A program made the position numbers and the translations under genes. From a bacterium (GTDB lineage Bacteria > Hydrothermota > UBA3073 > JACQXS01 > JAGMCI01): DNA of 43,877 nt. Where the stretch lies: assembly GCA_030018315.1 (NCBI GenBank), contig JASEGA010000017.1, positions 1 to 43,877 of the forward strand. Reading direction: 5' to 3'. The notes below the pieces were generated by a model. The model saw nothing but the letters and a program-made list of their open reading frames with translations. It was not told the DNA's origin and did no database searches. This document shows positions 8,791 to 39,842 of this stretch, piece by piece. The stretch's first letter is position 1; each line of letters starts with the position of its first letter.

Positions 8791-9598
8791 GGGGATTGAA
8801 GAATCTATGCTTGAGGCAGAGACGCTCGTAGCCCATAGTTTGAGGTTAGATAGGACTTCTATCTATCTAAATTATGATAAACCTCTATCAGATTACAAGC
8901 TTAAAATTATATCCAGAATTATAAGGAGAAGACTTAATCGTGAGCCTCTGCAATACTTAACTAAAAGTGTAAATTTTTTTGGTCTCAATTTCATAGTTGA
9001 ACCGCCTGTTTTTATTCCGAGACCAGAGACTGAAGTTTTAGTCCAAACTCTTATAGAACTTGGTATGGGTTTGATTAATCAAACCCATACCATTGGGGAG
9101 ACTGTAATTTTTGATGTAGGAACAGGGTGTGGAGCAATTGGGATAGCGAGCCTTAAGTTTTTGCCCCATGCAATAGTTTACGCATCTGATGTAATTGACC
9201 TTAAGCTTGCTAAAAAAAATGCAGAAAGAATTGGAGTAAGTGATAGAATAAATTTTTTAGTAGGCGACTTACTTACCCCATTTAAAAGTAAAAGAGCAGA
9301 TTTTATAGTCTCAAATCCGCCGTATATACCTACTCAACTCATACCCACACTTCAGCCTGAGATAAGATTTTTTGAGTCCCGCACTTCAATAGATGGAGGT
9401 AAAGATGGTTTGGCTTTTATCTCTAAACTGATAAAAACTGCACCCTTATATCTTAAGCCGTCCGGAGTGTTACTGGTAGAAATTTCTCCTCAACAAAAAG
9501 AAAAAGTAAAATATGAAGCAGTAAAGTATTTTAAAGAAGTTAATTTTATCAACGATTTCTTTGATAGGACTCGTATCCTTTTAGCAAAATGCGCATAG
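8729..9598 (+). CDS. prmC: Release-factor glutamine methyltransferase PrmC (HemK)
   Basis: PrmC N5-methylates the Gln of the GGQ motif in RF1/RF2 using SAM. The SAM-binding motif is DVGTGCGAIGIA and the catalytic motif is NPPY (SNPPYIP); an all-helical N-terminal substrate domain precedes them. The reading frame overlaps prfA by 62 bp; an internal ATG at 8741 (MQIAEIITHTAQSL) fits family starts equally well, and neither has a strong ribosome site. Between the N-terminal domain and the SAM motif lies an extra segment GMGLINQTHTIG, encoded by a 32-bp perfect palindrome at 9061-9092 that appears to be an inserted repeat (see its own entry). The gene overlaps nadK by 10 bp. Confidence 0.95.
   Translation: MSLKMQIAEIITHTAQSLKNKGIEESMLEAETLVAHSLRLDRTSIYLNYDKPLSDYKLKIISRIIRRRLNREPLQYLTKSVNFFGLNFIVEPPVFIPRPETEVLVQTLIELGMGLINQTHTIGETVIFDVGTGCGAIGIASLKFLPHAIVYASDVIDLKLAKKNAERIGVSDRINFLVGDLLTPFKSKRADFIVSNPPYIPTQLIPTLQPEIRFFESRTSIDGGKDGLAFISKLIKTAPLYLKPSGVLLVEISPQQKEKVKYEAVKYFKEVNFINDFFDRTRILLAKCA
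9061..9092. repeat. 32-bp perfect palindrome inserted in frame in prmC
   Basis: The two 16-base arms are exact reverse complements with core GGGTTTGATTAATCAAACCC. The same 20-bp core recurs in the Sua5 gene at 24247-24274. It is read as GLINQT in both proteins. The other two frames of the core contain TGA or TAA, so only this frame can be tolerated in a gene. Confidence 0.9.
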
Positions 9599-14661: not shown

Positions 14662-14702
14662 AATTGAGGTAATAGTGAAGCAAGTAGAGAAAGGTGAAGC
14701 CC

Positions 14703-15380
14703 ATGAAATTTAAGGGATTACAAAAATTGTCTGTAATTGAGTATCCGGGCAAACTTTGTGCAATTGTATTTACTGGAGGCTGCAACTTCAGGTGTCATTA
14801 TTGCCATAATCCAGAGCTCGTTGTTGGGTATGAGAAGCTTCCTGATATAGATGAAGAGAATATTATTACCTTTATGCAAAAAAGGAAAAGATTCCTCGAC
14901 GGCTTATGTATCACGGGAGGTGAGCCTACTCTCCACCAAGAACTTCTTCAATTTATTGAGAAGATTAAAAAACTTGATTTCCTGGTAAAACTGGATACAA
15001 ATGGGACAAATCCAGAGCTCATATCTCATGTTATAGAAAATAGGTTTGTAGATTATATAGCGATGGATATAAAAGGAACACCCGAGCGTTATAAGGAGAT
15101 AGCAGATGTAAATATAGATATTTCAAAAATTAAAGCTAGTGTCCAACTTATAATGCATAGTAATATAGATTACGAGTTCAGAACAACTGTATTTCCTGAG
15201 TTCTTTGGTAAAGAGGACGCAAAACAAATTGGTGAATGGGTAAAAGGTGCAAAGCGGTATGTCTTACAACAGCCAAGAGTAGTGAAGATGCTTAATGGAA
15301 CTCTTAAGGATGCAAAACTTTATAGTGATTTAGAATTGAGTCAATTTACACAATTTCTACCAAACTGTGTAATCAGATAA
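14703..15380 (+). CDS. Radical SAM protein, anaerobic ribonucleotide reductase activase-like (NrdG family)
   Basis: The 225-aa protein carries the radical SAM motif CNFRCHYC, a following CITGGEPTLH and the substrate segment LDTNGTNPELI. Length and sequence match the long form annotated as anaerobic NTP reductase activating protein (YIEYPGKL-like start, here SVIEYPGKLCAIVF). Members of this family generate a glycyl radical on a partner enzyme. No NrdD or other glycyl-radical enzyme is in the window, so the partner is unknown. I prefer the ATG at 14703 over the GTG at 14694 because AAAGGTGA stands seven bases upstream of it. Confidence 0.9.
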   Translation: MKFKGLQKLSVIEYPGKLCAIVFTGGCNFRCHYCHNPELVVGYEKLPDIDEENIITFMQKRKRFLDGLCITGGEPTLHQELLQFIEKIKKLDFLVKLDTNGTNPELISHVIENRFVDYIAMDIKGTPERYKEIADVNIDISKIKASVQLIMHSNIDYEFRTTVFPEFFGKEDAKQIGEWVKGAKRYVLQQPRVVKMLNGTLKDAKLYSDLELSQFTQFLPNCVIR

Positions 15381-15528
15381 TTATGATTACACAGATTTAT
15401 TTTAGATTACACAGATTAAAATGTAGGGGCGGGGTAACCCCTCCCCTATCCATCGGTGTAATCTGGTTTTATCCACAGGATGCTGTGCATAATCTGTATA
15501 ATCAGGTATAACTAAGATAGGAGGTAAC
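15381..15528. repeat. Nested dispersed repeats between the radical SAM gene and trpB2
   Basis: The spacer consists of TTACACAGATT-type words (15386-15420 and about 15453-15505, in inverted orientation) around a GTAGGGG palindrome at 15423-15449. That palindrome matches 25 of 27 bases of the one inside dprA (20215-20241). The inner and outer inverted repeats could fold into one long hairpin. No terminator T-run is seen. Confidence 0.65.
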
Positions 15529-16827
15529 ATGAAAAAGTTGAGGCAAGTAAGCTTTGGTTTAAAAGATATGCCACACCAGTGGTATAACATAATTCCAGAT
15601 TTACCTGCACCATTGCCACCACCAAAAGACCCGGATGACGGTAGACAAAGGGTAGCAAAACTACCTGACTTGATGATAGGTGAATGTTTGAAACAGGAGT
15701 TATCACAGGAGAGGTGGGTAGATATACCCAATGGGATTATTGAGTTATATGCACAAGCTGGTAGACCACGGCCCTTGTTTAGGGCTTTAAATTTAGAAAA
15801 GAAGCTGGAAACTCCAGCGAGATTATATTATAAAGGTGAATTCTTTTCACCAACTGGCAGTCATAAAGTGAATACTGCTCTAGCTCAGTGTTGGTATGCT
15901 AAAAAGCAGGGCTTTGAGCGAGTGACGACTGAGACAGGTGCCGGTCAGTGGGGAACTGCTCTTGCTTATGCAGCAGCGCTTATAGGGCTAAAATGCACAA
16001 TATTTTGGGTTCGCAGTGTGTATAACTGGAAACAAGACCGCCGAAACTTTATGGAACTATTGGGAGCAGAAGTTAACCCTTCTCCATCACCTAAGACAGA
16101 ATGCGGTAGAGTACTGTATGGTAAGAATCCCAATCATCCTGGCTCGTTAGGAATTGCAATTTCAGAAGGGTTGGAAGATTCACAAAAGGACCCGAAAGCA
16201 GTGTATTGTCTTGGCTCTGTTCTTAATCATGTACTTTTGCACCAAACAATAATTGGACTTGAGACACAAAAACAGTTTGAGGTATTTGATGATTATCCTG
16301 ATGTTGTAATCTCATGTCTAGGTGGTGGGTCAAATTTTGGTGGCTTTGCAATTCCATTTATTGGCGATGTGCTTAAGAAAGGCAAAAAGATAAAGTTTAT
16401 TGCTGCACAATCAGAAGTAGCTCCTAATCTTCAAGGTGAATATAGATTTGACTTTGCAGATTACGCTGAAATTACTCCCCTCCTTAAGATGTATACACTT
16501 GGTCATAAAGTAGAGATGAAACCTATAAAGGGAGATGGGCTCAGGTACCATGGCTGTTCACCTATAATTAGTTTACTTAGAAATTTAGGTTATATAGATA
16601 CAATAGCTTACCCATCCGATGAGCGCTATGTATTTGAATGTGCAAGAACTTTTATTGAGACAGAAGGGTGGCTACCTGCACCTGAATCTGCATATTCAAT
16701 TGCCTGCGCTATAGATGAAGCAATCAAATGTAGAGAATCGGGTGAGAAGAAGGTAATTGCTTTTAATGTATCAGGACACGGATTTTTGGATATATTTGGG
16801 TATAGAGAGGTGCTTGGGCTACAGTAA
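15529..16827 (+). CDS. TrpB2-type tryptophan synthase beta-like PLP enzyme
   Basis: The 432-aa protein has the TrpB2 N-terminus (MPHQWYNIIPDLPAPLPPPKDP), the PLP lysine in SPTGSHKVNTALAQ (K113) and the phosphate-binding glycine loop CLGGGSNFGG. The family condenses serine with indole to give tryptophan. TrpB2 is usually independent of TrpA, and no trpA or other trp gene is adjacent, so the role could be indole salvage; iorAB downstream makes indole-ring metabolism a plausible theme, but that is inference. The start is supported by an AGGAGG ribosome site. Confidence 0.95.
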   Translation: MKKLRQVSFGLKDMPHQWYNIIPDLPAPLPPPKDPDDGRQRVAKLPDLMIGECLKQELSQERWVDIPNGIIELYAQAGRPRPLFRALNLEKKLETPARLYYKGEFFSPTGSHKVNTALAQCWYAKKQGFERVTTETGAGQWGTALAYAAALIGLKCTIFWVRSVYNWKQDRRNFMELLGAEVNPSPSPKTECGRVLYGKNPNHPGSLGIAISEGLEDSQKDPKAVYCLGSVLNHVLLHQTIIGLETQKQFEVFDDYPDVVISCLGGGSNFGGFAIPFIGDVLKKGKKIKFIAAQSEVAPNLQGEYRFDFADYAEITPLLKMYTLGHKVEMKPIKGDGLRYHGCSPIISLLRNLGYIDTIAYPSDERYVFECARTFIETEGWLPAPESAYSIACAIDEAIKCRESGEKKVIAFNVSGHGFLDIFGYREVLGLQ

Positions 16828-20036: not shown

Positions 20037-20933
20037 ATGATGAAACTAAATTACTGGCTACTTCTGCATTCAATTCCCGGGATAGGGGCTGCTACTTTTA
20101 ACAAGTTGCTTGAAAGATTTGGTGAACCTAATAGAATTATTCAGGCAAAAAGAGAAGAACTCATGTGTATCCCAAGGTTAAGCCCAAGGTTAGTAAACTC
20201 AATACTGTCAATCCGTAGGGGCGGGGTAACCCCGCCCCTACATTATATACAAGATATGGATAAAATTCTTGTTGAACTCAATAAGAGACAGTTTAAAATG
20301 ATTACAAGATATAATGAAGATTACCCTTCAAGGCTTAGAGGAATAAAAAATTCACCCCCTATCATTTATGTCTATGGTAAACTGGATATGCCTAAGACCA
20401 TAGCTATAGTGGGTACAAGACAAGCCTCATTTCAAGGCTTACAAAAGGCTATTGAGTTTGCAAGTAAGCTTGCTACTCGAGGTTTTACAATTGTATCAGG
20501 TTATGCGAAAGGTATTGATACTTATGCTCATCTTGGTGCACTTAAAGGAAAGGGGAGAACGGTAATGGTGCTTCCGACAGGTGTACTCAATTTTGCCTTG
20601 CATAAAGAGCTCTATGGAGTGAGAGCAGAACTGTGGGAGCATGGTACAATTGTATCTGAATTCTTTCCAACAGCCGGTTGGACTACAGGGCAAGCAATGT
20701 TAAGAAATCGTATAATTAGTGGACTTGGAGATGCTACCCTTGTGATTGAGGCAGGCGAGAAGGGTGGTACAATAGCAACAGCAAAATGGGCAAAGGAACA
20801 AGGTAAACCGCTGTTTATATCAAGTCCAGCAGATAATAAGAGTAGCAAAGAAATAATTGGGCTTGGTGCTAAATTAGTAGAAAGCCCTGAAGATGTTTTA
20901 AGGGAACTAACCAGTTTTTCGGTCTCATTTTAA
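20037..20933 (+). CDS. dprA: DNA-processing protein DprA
   Basis: DprA binds incoming single-stranded DNA and loads RecA during transformation. The 298-aa protein has an N-terminal helix-hairpin-helix (LLHSIPGIGAATFNKLLERFG) and a Rossmann core (VGTRQASFQGLQKAIEFASKL, TIVSGYAKGIDTYAHLGAL, NRIISGLGDATLVIEAGEKGGTIATA). It lacks the C-terminal winged-helix domain of longer members. A 27-bp palindrome (20215-20241) is read in frame as RGGVTPPLH between the HhH and core domains. Both gene ends have extra partial copies nearby (19957-19996 and 21780-21905). Two adjacent ATGs (20037 and 20040) are available and no ribosome site is obvious. Confidence 0.92.
   Translation: MMKLNYWLLLHSIPGIGAATFNKLLERFGEPNRIIQAKREELMCIPRLSPRLVNSILSIRRGGVTPPLHYIQDMDKILVELNKRQFKMITRYNEDYPSRLRGIKNSPPIIYVYGKLDMPKTIAIVGTRQASFQGLQKAIEFASKLATRGFTIVSGYAKGIDTYAHLGALKGKGRTVMVLPTGVLNFALHKELYGVRAELWEHGTIVSEFFPTAGWTTGQAMLRNRIISGLGDATLVIEAGEKGGTIATAKWAKEQGKPLFISSPADNKSSKEIIGLGAKLVESPEDVLRELTSFSVSF
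20215..20241. repeat. 27-bp GTAGGGG palindrome inserted in frame in dprA
   Basis: Two exact 13-base arms (GTAGGGGCGGGGT and its complement) flank one central A. A 25/27 copy is intergenic at 15423-15449. The G+C content is far above that of the gene. It adds nine codons that keep the frame open. Confidence 0.9.
20772..20897 (+). repeat. dprA 3' segment, left copy of a direct repeat
   Basis: This part of dprA is repeated at 21780-21905, 1008 bp downstream, with six mismatches over about 126 bases. Confidence 0.9.
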
Positions 20934-23738: not shown

Positions 23739-24788
23739 TTATTCTATTCTTTTCTTTAATTTTTCTACCCAAGCAGTTATTGATTTAATAAGTTGCTCCC
23801 GTGTTTCTAAATAAGTTTCTATGGTTCCCCCTATGGGGTCTTTAATTCCACCGGGTGCAATAACACGGGTCTTAAATTTTGCTTCAGGAAATAAGCTAAT
23901 AACTTCGTCTTTTTGTGCCTCGTCCGCAGTTAGGATAAGGTCAGCCCAATTTATAAGTGATTGAGAGATTGGTTTTGAGTAGTAAGAGCTAATGTCAACC
24001 TCTATTTCTTTCATCACTTGAATTGTTGACTCAGTAGGTAGTTCTCCATAAGTTCCATGAATACCACAGGCGTCAACTTCTACTGATGGAAGTAGTTTTT
24101 TAAGAATTCCCATAGCCATTGGAGACCTGCATCTATTTGCTGAGCAGACAAAGAGTACACAAAAATTAACTCCTTTCCCTAATTTAATATATCGTTTTGT
24201 AACAGATTCAAGTTCAAGTATTCCAACCTTCCCTTTTCTTAATAGTGTAGGGGTTTGATTAATCAAACCCCTACTTACATCAATGATTGTAGAAGGAAGT
24301 CCCCACTTACATCTTCCTTGAATAACAAAATCTGGCTCAATATTCATTTCTAAGTGGTCTGTTGGGGGTGTTGTACCTTCAATGTTTGCACTTGTAGTTG
24401 CAAGTGGTTTGTTATATTGGCGTAAAAGATTGAGTACAAATTCATTGTCCGGTATTCTTATTCCTACCGTATAATCAGATGTAGGGATAGGTACATTTCT
24501 TTTTGCATTAAAAATAATAGTTAGCCCACCGGGCCAGAATTTTTCCACAAGTCTTGTTGCAGTTATTGTAACTTTAGGTACATATTTTTTAAGTTTAGAT
24601 TTGTCGCTAATAAAAAGGATAAGCGGTTTATCTAACGACCTTTGCTTTAGTTTATATATTCTATCTATTGCAATTTGATTATATGCATCACAGCCAATTC
24701 CATATACAGTATCTGTAGGAAATCCAATTATACCATCATGTTTAAGGACTTGTATTGCGCTTTCTATTAACTTAGTATTTTTATTCAT
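23739..24788 (-). CDS. Fusion: Sua5/TsaC threonylcarbamoyl-AMP synthase + low-molecular-weight protein phosphatase
   Basis: The N-terminal half (about residues 1-200) is a Sua5/YrdC domain (FPTDTVYGIGCDA, KLKQRSLDKPL, TTSANIEG), which makes threonylcarbamoyl-AMP for t6A37 of tRNA. The C-terminal half is a low-molecular-weight phosphatase with the CX5R loop VCSANRCRSP (C215, R221) and the acid Asp in GGIKDPIGG (D317). In Bacillus the separate genes ywlC and ywlE are near neighbours, and YwlE is an arginine phosphatase, so the second half may act on protein phospho-arginine. I use the ATG at 24788, because a promoter (24802-24829) lies inside the longer frame that opens at 24857. A palindrome-encoded GLINQTPT (174-181) extends a loop of the Sua5 domain. 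Confidence 0.9.
   Translation of the reverse strand: MNKNTKLIESAIQVLKHDGIIGFPTDTVYGIGCDAYNQIAIDRIYKLKQRSLDKPLILFISDKSKLKKYVPKVTITATRLVEKFWPGGLTIIFNAKRNVPIPTSDYTVGIRIPDNEFVLNLLRQYNKPLATTSANIEGTTPPTDHLEMNIEPDFVIQGRCKWGLPSTIIDVSRGLINQTPTLLRKGKVGILELESVTKRYIKLGKGVNFCVLFVCSANRCRSPMAMGILKKLLPSVEVDACGIHGTYGELPTESTIQVMKEIEVDISSYYSKPISQSLINWADLILTADEAQKDEVISLFPEAKFKTRVIAPGGIKDPIGGTIETYLETREQLIKSITAWVEKLKKRIE
24247..24274. repeat. 28-bp perfect palindrome inserted in frame in the Sua5 domain
   Basis: The arms run from GTAGGGG to CCCCTAC around the core GGGTTTGATTAATCAAACCC. It combines the outer ends of the dprA and intergenic palindromes with the core of the prmC palindrome, so all belong to one family. 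It is read as GLINQTPT. Confidence 0.9.
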
Positions 24789-24801
24789 TTTGTCGTTACT
24801 A

Positions 24802-24829
24802 ATTGTACCACATTTTTCAAATTTGTCAA
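24802..24829 (-). promoter_or_regulatory. Promoter of the Sua5-phosphatase gene
   Basis: On the minus strand the sequence is TTGACA, 16 bp, TACAAT. The ATG at 24788 is 13 bases after the -10, so the leader is about seven nt or less. This places the true start downstream of the longest possible frame. Confidence 0.65.
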
Positions 24830-24850
24830 TTTTTGTGAATGCTTTTTTAT

Positions 24851-24884
24851 TTGACAAATAGAAGAAATTGACTTACATTATAAA
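24851..24884 (+). promoter_or_regulatory. Possible promoter of the MBL hydrolase gene
   Basis: TTGACA is at 24851-24856. A -10 could be TACATT at 24874-24879 (17-bp spacer) or TATAAA at 24879-24884. Either puts the start site at or next to the ATG at 24888. Confidence 0.45.
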
Positions 24885-27173: not shown

Positions 27174-28331
27174 TTGGTTATCTTAGGTATTGACGAAGCT
27201 GGTAGAGGCCCTGTAGTGGGTCCGCTTGTAGTTTGTGGAGTTGTTTGTGCTGAAGAAGAGGCGAGTAGATTAAAAGAAGCAGGAGTGAGGGACTCCAAAA
27301 CTCTCACTCGTGAGCAGAGAGAAAAACTTGTTCCAATTATTAAATCCATTATCCAAGAGTTCCGGATAATAAAGATTCCTCCCAATGAGATAGACAGGGA
27401 AAACTTAAATGAGGTTGAAATAAAAGCTATGTCAACTTTAATTCAGTGGGCTCGAGTTAGAAAAGTTATCCTTGATGTTCCTGCCAATACTAAAGGAATT
27501 AAAAAATATTGCAATAAGATAAAACAACTTATCCATGACTCAGAGGTTGAGATAATTGGAGAGCCACACGCTGATTCAACTTATCCTATAGTTAGTGCTG
27601 CAAGTATTTTAGCAAAAGTAGCAAGAGACTGGGAAATTGATGAATTACATAAAAAATATGGTGATTTTGGGTCAGGCTACCCGGCAGACCCCAAAACCAG
27701 AAAATTTGTCCAAGAATGGTATAAGACACCCGGAATAGTTAGAAGGAAGTGGCTGACTTGTGCAGAAATTCTTGTTACAACTGGCAAGATTATAGTTATA
27801 GGGGCACGGGATACGGGCAAGACTGAGTTTTGTAAAAAGCTTGTAAACCTGGGCTTAAATAGAGGGTATAAGGTAGGGGTTATGGATTTAGATATTGGCC
27901 AATCTCACATAGGAGCACCTGGGAGTTTAGGGTTTGGTATAGCCTACAAGAAAATAAGAGATTTAAGCCATATACCACCAACCATTGTTTATCCTGTAGG
28001 TACACTTTCACCTGCTGGGCATAGTGAAAAAATTCTTACTGGAATTAAATATATGCTACACAAAATTCCAGCCTCTATTAATTTCCTCGTAATTGATACA
28101 ACAGGTTATGTAAATGGAATGGATGCTTTGAAATTAAAGATACAAAAGGTAAAACTTATAAATCCTGATAGGATTGTTTTCCTTGAGCGTAATACTGAAC
28201 TTGACCAACTTGCAGTAGCATTGGGGCCGAGAGAGATTTATAGATTTTCCATCTCATCAAAAGTAAGCAAGAAATCAAAATCTAAAAGGAAGAAATTTGT
28301 TGACAGAAAGCTAAAATTTAACTATATTTAA
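27174..28331 (+). CDS. Fusion: archaeal-type RNase HII + Clp1/Grc3-type polynucleotide 5'-kinase
   Basis: Residues about 1-198 are RNase HII: GIDEAGRGP (D7, E8), the DSK motif (40-42), D101 and D134 (HADSTYPIVSAASILAKVARD). The blocks YGDFGSGYPADPKTRKF and IVRRKW are typical of archaeal RNase HII. Residues about 203-385 form a P-loop kinase: Walker A GARDTGKT (G210-T217), then MDLDIGQSHIGAPGSLGFG (D238, D240), the pattern of the Clp1/Nol9/Grc3 family that phosphorylates RNA or DNA 5'-OH ends, then FLVIDTTGYVNG, a Walker B-like strand. The tail is Lys-rich (SKKSKSKRKKF). RNase HII cuts at ribonucleotides in DNA and leaves 5'-phosphate, so the kinase must serve 5'-OH ends from another source. 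The start is a TTG; rpoA follows after 20 bp. I do not know this fusion from the literature. Confidence 0.88.
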   Translation: MVILGIDEAGRGPVVGPLVVCGVVCAEEEASRLKEAGVRDSKTLTREQREKLVPIIKSIIQEFRIIKIPPNEIDRENLNEVEIKAMSTLIQWARVRKVILDVPANTKGIKKYCNKIKQLIHDSEVEIIGEPHADSTYPIVSAASILAKVARDWEIDELHKKYGDFGSGYPADPKTRKFVQEWYKTPGIVRRKWLTCAEILVTTGKIIVIGARDTGKTEFCKKLVNLGLNRGYKVGVMDLDIGQSHIGAPGSLGFGIAYKKIRDLSHIPPTIVYPVGTLSPAGHSEKILTGIKYMLHKIPASINFLVIDTTGYVNGMDALKLKIQKVKLINPDRIVFLERNTELDQLAVALGPREIYRFSISSKVSKKSKSKRKKFVDRKLKFNYI

Positions 28332-39814: not shown

Positions 39815-39842
39815 GTAGGGACACGGCACGCTGTGTCCCCAC
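39815..39842. repeat. Imperfect GTAGGG-family palindrome between tmRNA and yggS
   Basis: GTAGGGACACGGCA pairs with CGCTGTGTCCCCAC over 28 bases with three mismatches. It is 20 bp from the tmRNA 3' end. Confidence 0.6.

Follow-up and report, generated by a model that had tools for sequence, protein, structure and literature searches.

Double-foot REPs, in which GT[AG]G...C[TC]AC marks the two ends of the element, have been described as the partners of TnpA_REP transposases of subclass 2.4 (equivalent to RAYT group 4), and in this subclass the tnpA_REP gene itself can contain in-frame REPs, located between its HuH and Y motifs (Quentin et al. 2018, PMC6006769). GTAG-tagged REP families, intragenic REPs and the Rickettsia RPEs are described by Di Nocera et al. 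2013 (PMC3733652), and there is biochemical evidence that other TnpA_REP cleave at CT next to the REP (PMC8266576). The palindrome described here, which lies in the reading frame of a Sua5 gene, is very probably a double-foot REP and a substrate of HUH single-strand transposases belonging to TnpA_REP/RAYT subclass 2.4 (group 4 of Bertels).

The palindrome in the Sua5 gene and its relatives in the window

The window (the whole stretch of 43,877 nucleotides that was analysed) is part of a genome of 1.95 Mb in 74 contigs with 96.5% completeness. Positions 24247-24274 form a perfect 28-bp palindrome, GTAGGGGTTTGATTAATCAAACCCCTAC, whose two arms of 14 nt pair with 100% complementarity and enclose no loop. 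This element, its host gene and the other members of the family in the window are as follows:

23739..24857, minus strand: host gene, a fusion of a Sua5/TsaC-type threonylcarbamoyl-AMP synthase and a low-molecular-weight protein phosphatase, 372 aa, with PDB matches to both parts
24247..24274, no strand: very probable double-foot REP with core TTTGATTAATCAAA, in frame in the Sua5 domain, SRGLINQTPT on the minus strand
9061..9092, no strand: 32-bp perfect palindrome with the same core and GTATGGG/CCCATAC feet, in frame in prmC, GMGLINQTHT
20215..20241, no strand: 27-bp member with core CGGGGTAACCCCG and feet as in the Sua5 copy, in frame in dprA, RRGGVTPPLH
15423..15449, no strand: 27-bp degenerate member, GTAGGGGCGGGGTAACCCCTCCCCTAT, intergenic, downstream of 14694-15380 and upstream of 15529-16827
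39815..39842, no strand: degenerate member, GTAGGGACACGGCACGCTGTGTCCCCAC, immediately before the first ATG of a YggS-like gene

The original prediction, that the Sua5 palindrome is read in frame as GLINQT and has the same core as the one in prmC, agrees with the minus-strand codons (AGT AGG GGT TTG ATT AAT CAA ACC CCT ACA, or S R G L I N Q T P T) and with an identical core at 9063-9090, from which the perfect prmC palindrome extends to 9061-9092. The outer ends had also been said to match those of the dprA and intergenic palindromes; this holds for both feet of the dprA copy (20215-20241) and for only one foot of the intergenic copy (15423-15449), the other being imperfect. The degenerate member ahead of the YggS-like gene is similar to the CACGG class borne by a resident transposase (L396).

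The Sua5-phosphatase fusion (23739-24857, minus strand) can be aligned almost end to end with sequences from many relatives and, based on these alignments, appears to be widespread across the phylum. Another gene in the window (27174-28331, plus strand) encodes an RNase HII in apparent fusion with a C-terminal P-loop domain similar to polynucleotide kinases of the Clp1 type.

Genome-wide inventory and core classes

Random expectation does not account for the number of copies, with two matches to GTAGGGG-N(8-30)-CCCCTAC in the window (0 expected in shuffles) and 38 perfect-foot copies across the genome compared to one for a reversed-pattern control. For the core TTTGATTAATCAAA, the genome contains 33 exact copies, or 43 when one mismatch is allowed, at which setting its reversed control yields two matches, while fixed-length matches with ≤2 foot mismatches number 79, compared to 11 for the control. 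An inventory of the fetched loci of this genome holds 71 distinct members with lengths of 27, 28 or 32 bp and core classes that include TTTGATTAATCAAA, CAATTCATGAATTG, CGTATTGCAATACG, CGGGGTAACCCCG/CGAGGTAACCTCG, TTCAAAATTTTGAA and CACG..CGTG. A 32-bp variant, TTTGATTAATTAATCAAA (L012:1501-1532), has TTAA added at the centre and is still a perfect palindrome. The feet are common to these variants and the core classes recur across genomes and phyla, in keeping with the earlier proposal of one modular family that the Sua5 copy bridges.

Direct repeats of 1-5 bp flanking the copies show no excess over shuffled flanks and there is no flank symmetry around the copies beyond chance. The lack of flanking repeats fits single-strand transposition, yet provides no positive insertion scar. 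A MITE of a DDE transposon was considered and rejected, as the target-site duplication expected of such an element is missing, the 1-5 bp repeats being at the shuffled level. Directly 5' of the GTAG foot, the 142 sides of the 71 copies have T in 78 cases and C in only five, a possible sign of a preference at the target or boundary.

Host genes and reading frames

A majority of the 71 copies (45) lie wholly within ORFs of ≥100 aa and in frame; of the rest, three are at the edge of an ORF and 23 are outside ORFs of this size. Based on Pfam, most of the element-bearing ORFs are genuine genes, with supported hosts that include dnaX, murD (two elements), dxr, obg, plsY and hypA, as well as genes for an asparagine-synthase-like protein, a MiaB-like radical SAM protein, a purL-like AIRS/GATase protein and two class I tRNA synthetases, of which one contains a leucyl editing domain, among others. 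The two palindromes in murD (L011/L027, contig C4) are separate, at residues ~161 and ~253 of a single 457-aa ORF. Four paralogues (L006, L013, L029, and L105) have the same palindrome at the identical place in a C-terminal sorting domain of the Por_Secre_tail type, which indicates that it was duplicated along with the domain.

The recurrence of GLINQT follows from the palindrome itself, because one frame in three lacks a stop. Two frames of the 28-mer run into stops (GTA GGG GTT TGA, and TAG in the other), leaving AGG GGT TTG ATT AAT CAA ACC CCT open; this sole stop-free frame is the same on both strands, such that GLINQT is the only possible peptide. Selection on the peptide is unneeded as an explanation and was set aside, as the remaining frames carry stops and the repeated peptide is forced. 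Likewise, VGAIHELPL is the only possible peptide for the CAATTCATGAATTG class, while the CGTATTGCAATACG class allows either VGAYCNTPL or RGVLQYAPT, both of which are observed.

Length change in host proteins

The segment from STxxDxS to LLRKG has nine residues in the Sua5 domain studied here, all of them encoded by the element, compared to three to five residues in 29 Sua5 homologues of relatives. The insert is missing from all 29 aligned homologues, none of which has GLINQT, and it is not present in the threonylcarbamoyl-AMP synthases of the PDB. The loop after STIIDVS is thus lengthened, as had been predicted, by a net gain of ~4-6 residues, compared to the 9-10 codons supplied by the element.

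This shortfall recurs in other hosts. Relative to the element-free order relative G006, the net gains are +4 in Obg, +5 in Dxr, a GlcD-like FAD oxidase and a radical SAM protein, +6 in a PurL-like protein and Sua5, +7 in PrmC, +8 in a MiaB-like protein and +10 in DprA, and PDB alignments concur on the shortfall for Dxr, Obg, MiaB, the asparagine-synthase-like protein, MurD, and PrmC. A MurA-like gene of the relative G007 (L447) has gained +5. At the site in this gene, the native V and L coincide with the residues encoded at the two ends of the element and may represent short junction matches, with a possible bias from gap placement.

In the comparison with G006, 297 of 427 background windows (about 70%) show no length change and a clean insertion is therefore expected to appear usually as +9 or +10, with the caveats that inserts survive in loops, whose length varies above average, and that one gene, PhoH, is an outlier (-35) and inflates the mean. 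A net gain of about five in most genes, compared to the 9-10 codons of the element, counts against simple insertion. With about ten codons supplied and about five gained, native codons would have been either replaced or afterwards lost, and on the evidence of these alignments it is likely that they were replaced, at insertion or afterwards. It is conceivable, if rather doubtful, that double-foot REPs act in this lineage as editors of protein loops, whereby the stop-free frame of a palindrome would take the place of ~3-6 native codons, through integration or later selection, and would repeatedly rewrite the surface loops of core enzymes that remain functional.

Distribution across genomes

The exact 28-mer is found in 72 stretches of GTDB genomes under at least a dozen phylum-level names, including Zixibacteria, Nitrospirota, Dadabacteria, Aminicenantes, Sumerlaeota, Planctomycetota, Roizmanbacteria, Ignavibacteria, Rhodothermales, Latescibacterota, Edwardsbacteria, and Acidobacteriota, and an identical set of cores recurs in unrelated genomes. 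In these foreign genomes, 63 of 76 exact copies fall outside ORFs, and at least four of the 13 inside are in transposase genes. Perfect-foot copies within ORFs account for 27 of 37 in the genome of the window and five of five in the same-family G001 (of 10 present), 10 of 17 and three of 18 in the order relatives G007 and G002, none of five in the phylum relative G025, and one of five in the Dadabacteria genome G044. Even within one genus, G002 and G007 differ in the coding share of their copies. With a coding share that is high in the lineage of the window and mostly low elsewhere, coding-rich placement is a trait of the lineage.

Copy numbers also vary widely among relatives, and the TTTGATTAATCAAA class is absent among the perfect-foot copies of G001. 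Copies of the CGTATTGCAATACG class in this genome (L422-L434) are in frame in genes, one of them ahead of an IAVMGCIVNG motif typical of IspG. The nearest relative is from the same family only and the comparison contains no DNA-level empty site.

Association with MPNHxHG transposases

A search of the genome of the window for Y1 transposases recovered two; in L017, one of the two, a 27-bp palindrome follows the HUH motif, MPNHIHG, directly and in frame. A protein search added a further gene (L396) and a 35-aa N-terminal remnant. The two MPNHxHG transposases of this genome (L017 and L396) bear cores other than TTTGATTAATCAAA, and an intact transposase with the TTTGATTAATCAAA core was not found in the 96.5%-complete genome. 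The cognate enzyme is accordingly missing or has been lost, or it acts in trans. The remnant (contig C6:28643-28747, L105) consists of 35 residues of the MPNHxHG type and lies ~290 bp from a TTTGATTAATCAAA element; it is possibly the decayed cognate transposase.

Elsewhere, the exact 28-mer occurs in frame after MPNHxHG in Y1 transposases from Nitrospirota (L058), Edwardsbacteria (L092), Zixibacteria (L055), and Rhodothermales (L100), a sample that derives from a pattern scan for the element and is biased by that selection. In the unbiased sample, whose transposases were retrieved solely by protein similarity, 18 of 25 MPNHxHG transposases have a palindrome at +4 to +30 residues from the HUH motif, compared to nine of 228 control windows in the same ORFs, and most of the remaining MPNHxHG members have worn remnants (e.g., VGADLRVCP). 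The association does not extend to Y1 transposases at large, as most Y1 proteins (MPDHxHL types) are without such a palindrome, and holds for the MPNHxHG subfamily.

On a transposase tree constructed without the loop, core class requires 11 changes compared to a mean of 19.6 for shuffled classes (none of 200 shuffles reached so low a count). The CAATTCATGAATTG transposases, which come from four distant genomes, group in a single clade (support 97/95). This clustering indicates that the core class tracks the transposase lineage across phyla and, in combination with the occurrence of the 28-mer under at least a dozen phylum-level names, points to apparent travel between phyla with the transposases.

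Origin of the Sua5 copy

Based on the literature on other TnpA_REP, a subclass 2.4 transposase would recognise the folded hairpin with its GTAG foot, cut and rejoin single-stranded DNA at the replication fork and leave new copies elsewhere. We infer that such a transposase moved the Sua5 copy, which would have entered the turn that joins the strands STIIDVS and LLRKG and would have survived due to its one stop-free frame, a net length change that is a multiple of three and the tolerance of the turn for extra residues. The Sua5 domain presumably still works, given that its sequence is otherwise conserved and uninterrupted.

The main competitor to transposase-driven movement is a selfish protein-coding palindrome of the Rickettsia type (RPE-like), which would spread without a RAYT and be specialised for insertion into ORFs. 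Such an element would explain why in-frame copies dominate in this genome (45/71, and 27/37 for perfect feet) where no cognate intact transposase was found, and in-frame palindrome insertion has its classic case in R. conorii (PMC3733652). It is nevertheless improbable, as the same palindromes reside within RAYT genes and follow their clades, and the predominance of copies outside genes in other genomes (63/76) assigns coding insertion to the lineage and not to the element. The perfect two-fold symmetry, the near-identity of the copies and the enrichment of T and avoidance of C immediately 5' of the foot could instead reflect a conserved DNA site, such as a protein-binding palindrome or a signal for transcription or replication, that is held in place by selection and is not mobile. 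This is very improbable for sites that are scattered over unrelated genes with many core classes side by side, that differ widely in copy number among relatives, whose class is absent among the perfect-foot copies of the same-family G001, and whose Sua5 representative is not common to relatives. That the loop belongs to Sua5 as a regular conserved segment, with the palindrome incidental, found no support and is practically untenable, having already been refuted by the 29 homologues with three to five residues and no GLINQT and by the many occurrences of the identical 28-mer in unrelated genes.

Comparison with known systems

The assignment of the palindrome to the double-foot REPs extends these elements to an uncultured lineage where most copies lie in the reading frames of genes. 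Core genes of this genome supply tens of natural insertions that are in frame, and the gap between the length of the element and the net gain makes the mechanism of integration testable. A transposase gene that bears its own palindrome is not a novelty, having already been described for subclass 2.4 (PMC6006769); the element is of the double-foot REP kind, already known, and it is the distribution that is unusually coding-rich.

Compared to the subclass 2.4 REPs (PMC6006769), the family shares a long hairpin bounded by GT[AG]G and C[TC]AC, a GC-rich stem base, dispersal in multiple copies and in-frame copies after HuH in tnpA_REP genes, and differs in that most copies here are in frame in unrelated conserved host genes and that the TTTGATTAATCAAA core occurs without an intact resident transposase having been found. 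The GTAG-tagged REPs (PMC3733652) are likewise small hairpins with a GTAG foot and many copies, some of them in frame in ORFs; however, the tag of the classic families is unpaired and at one end only, whereas here GTAG is paired with CTAC, and classic REPs are mostly intergenic, whereas about two thirds of the copies here are within genes. Rickettsia RPE-1, RPE-4, and RPE-6 are also palindromes in frame in many protein genes, including those for tRNA modification and replication, but differ in sequence by description, with a CGTC tag for RPE-4/6 (PMC3733652) in contrast to GTAG here, and have no known transposase, whereas the element described here is carried by a family of Y1 HUH transposases.
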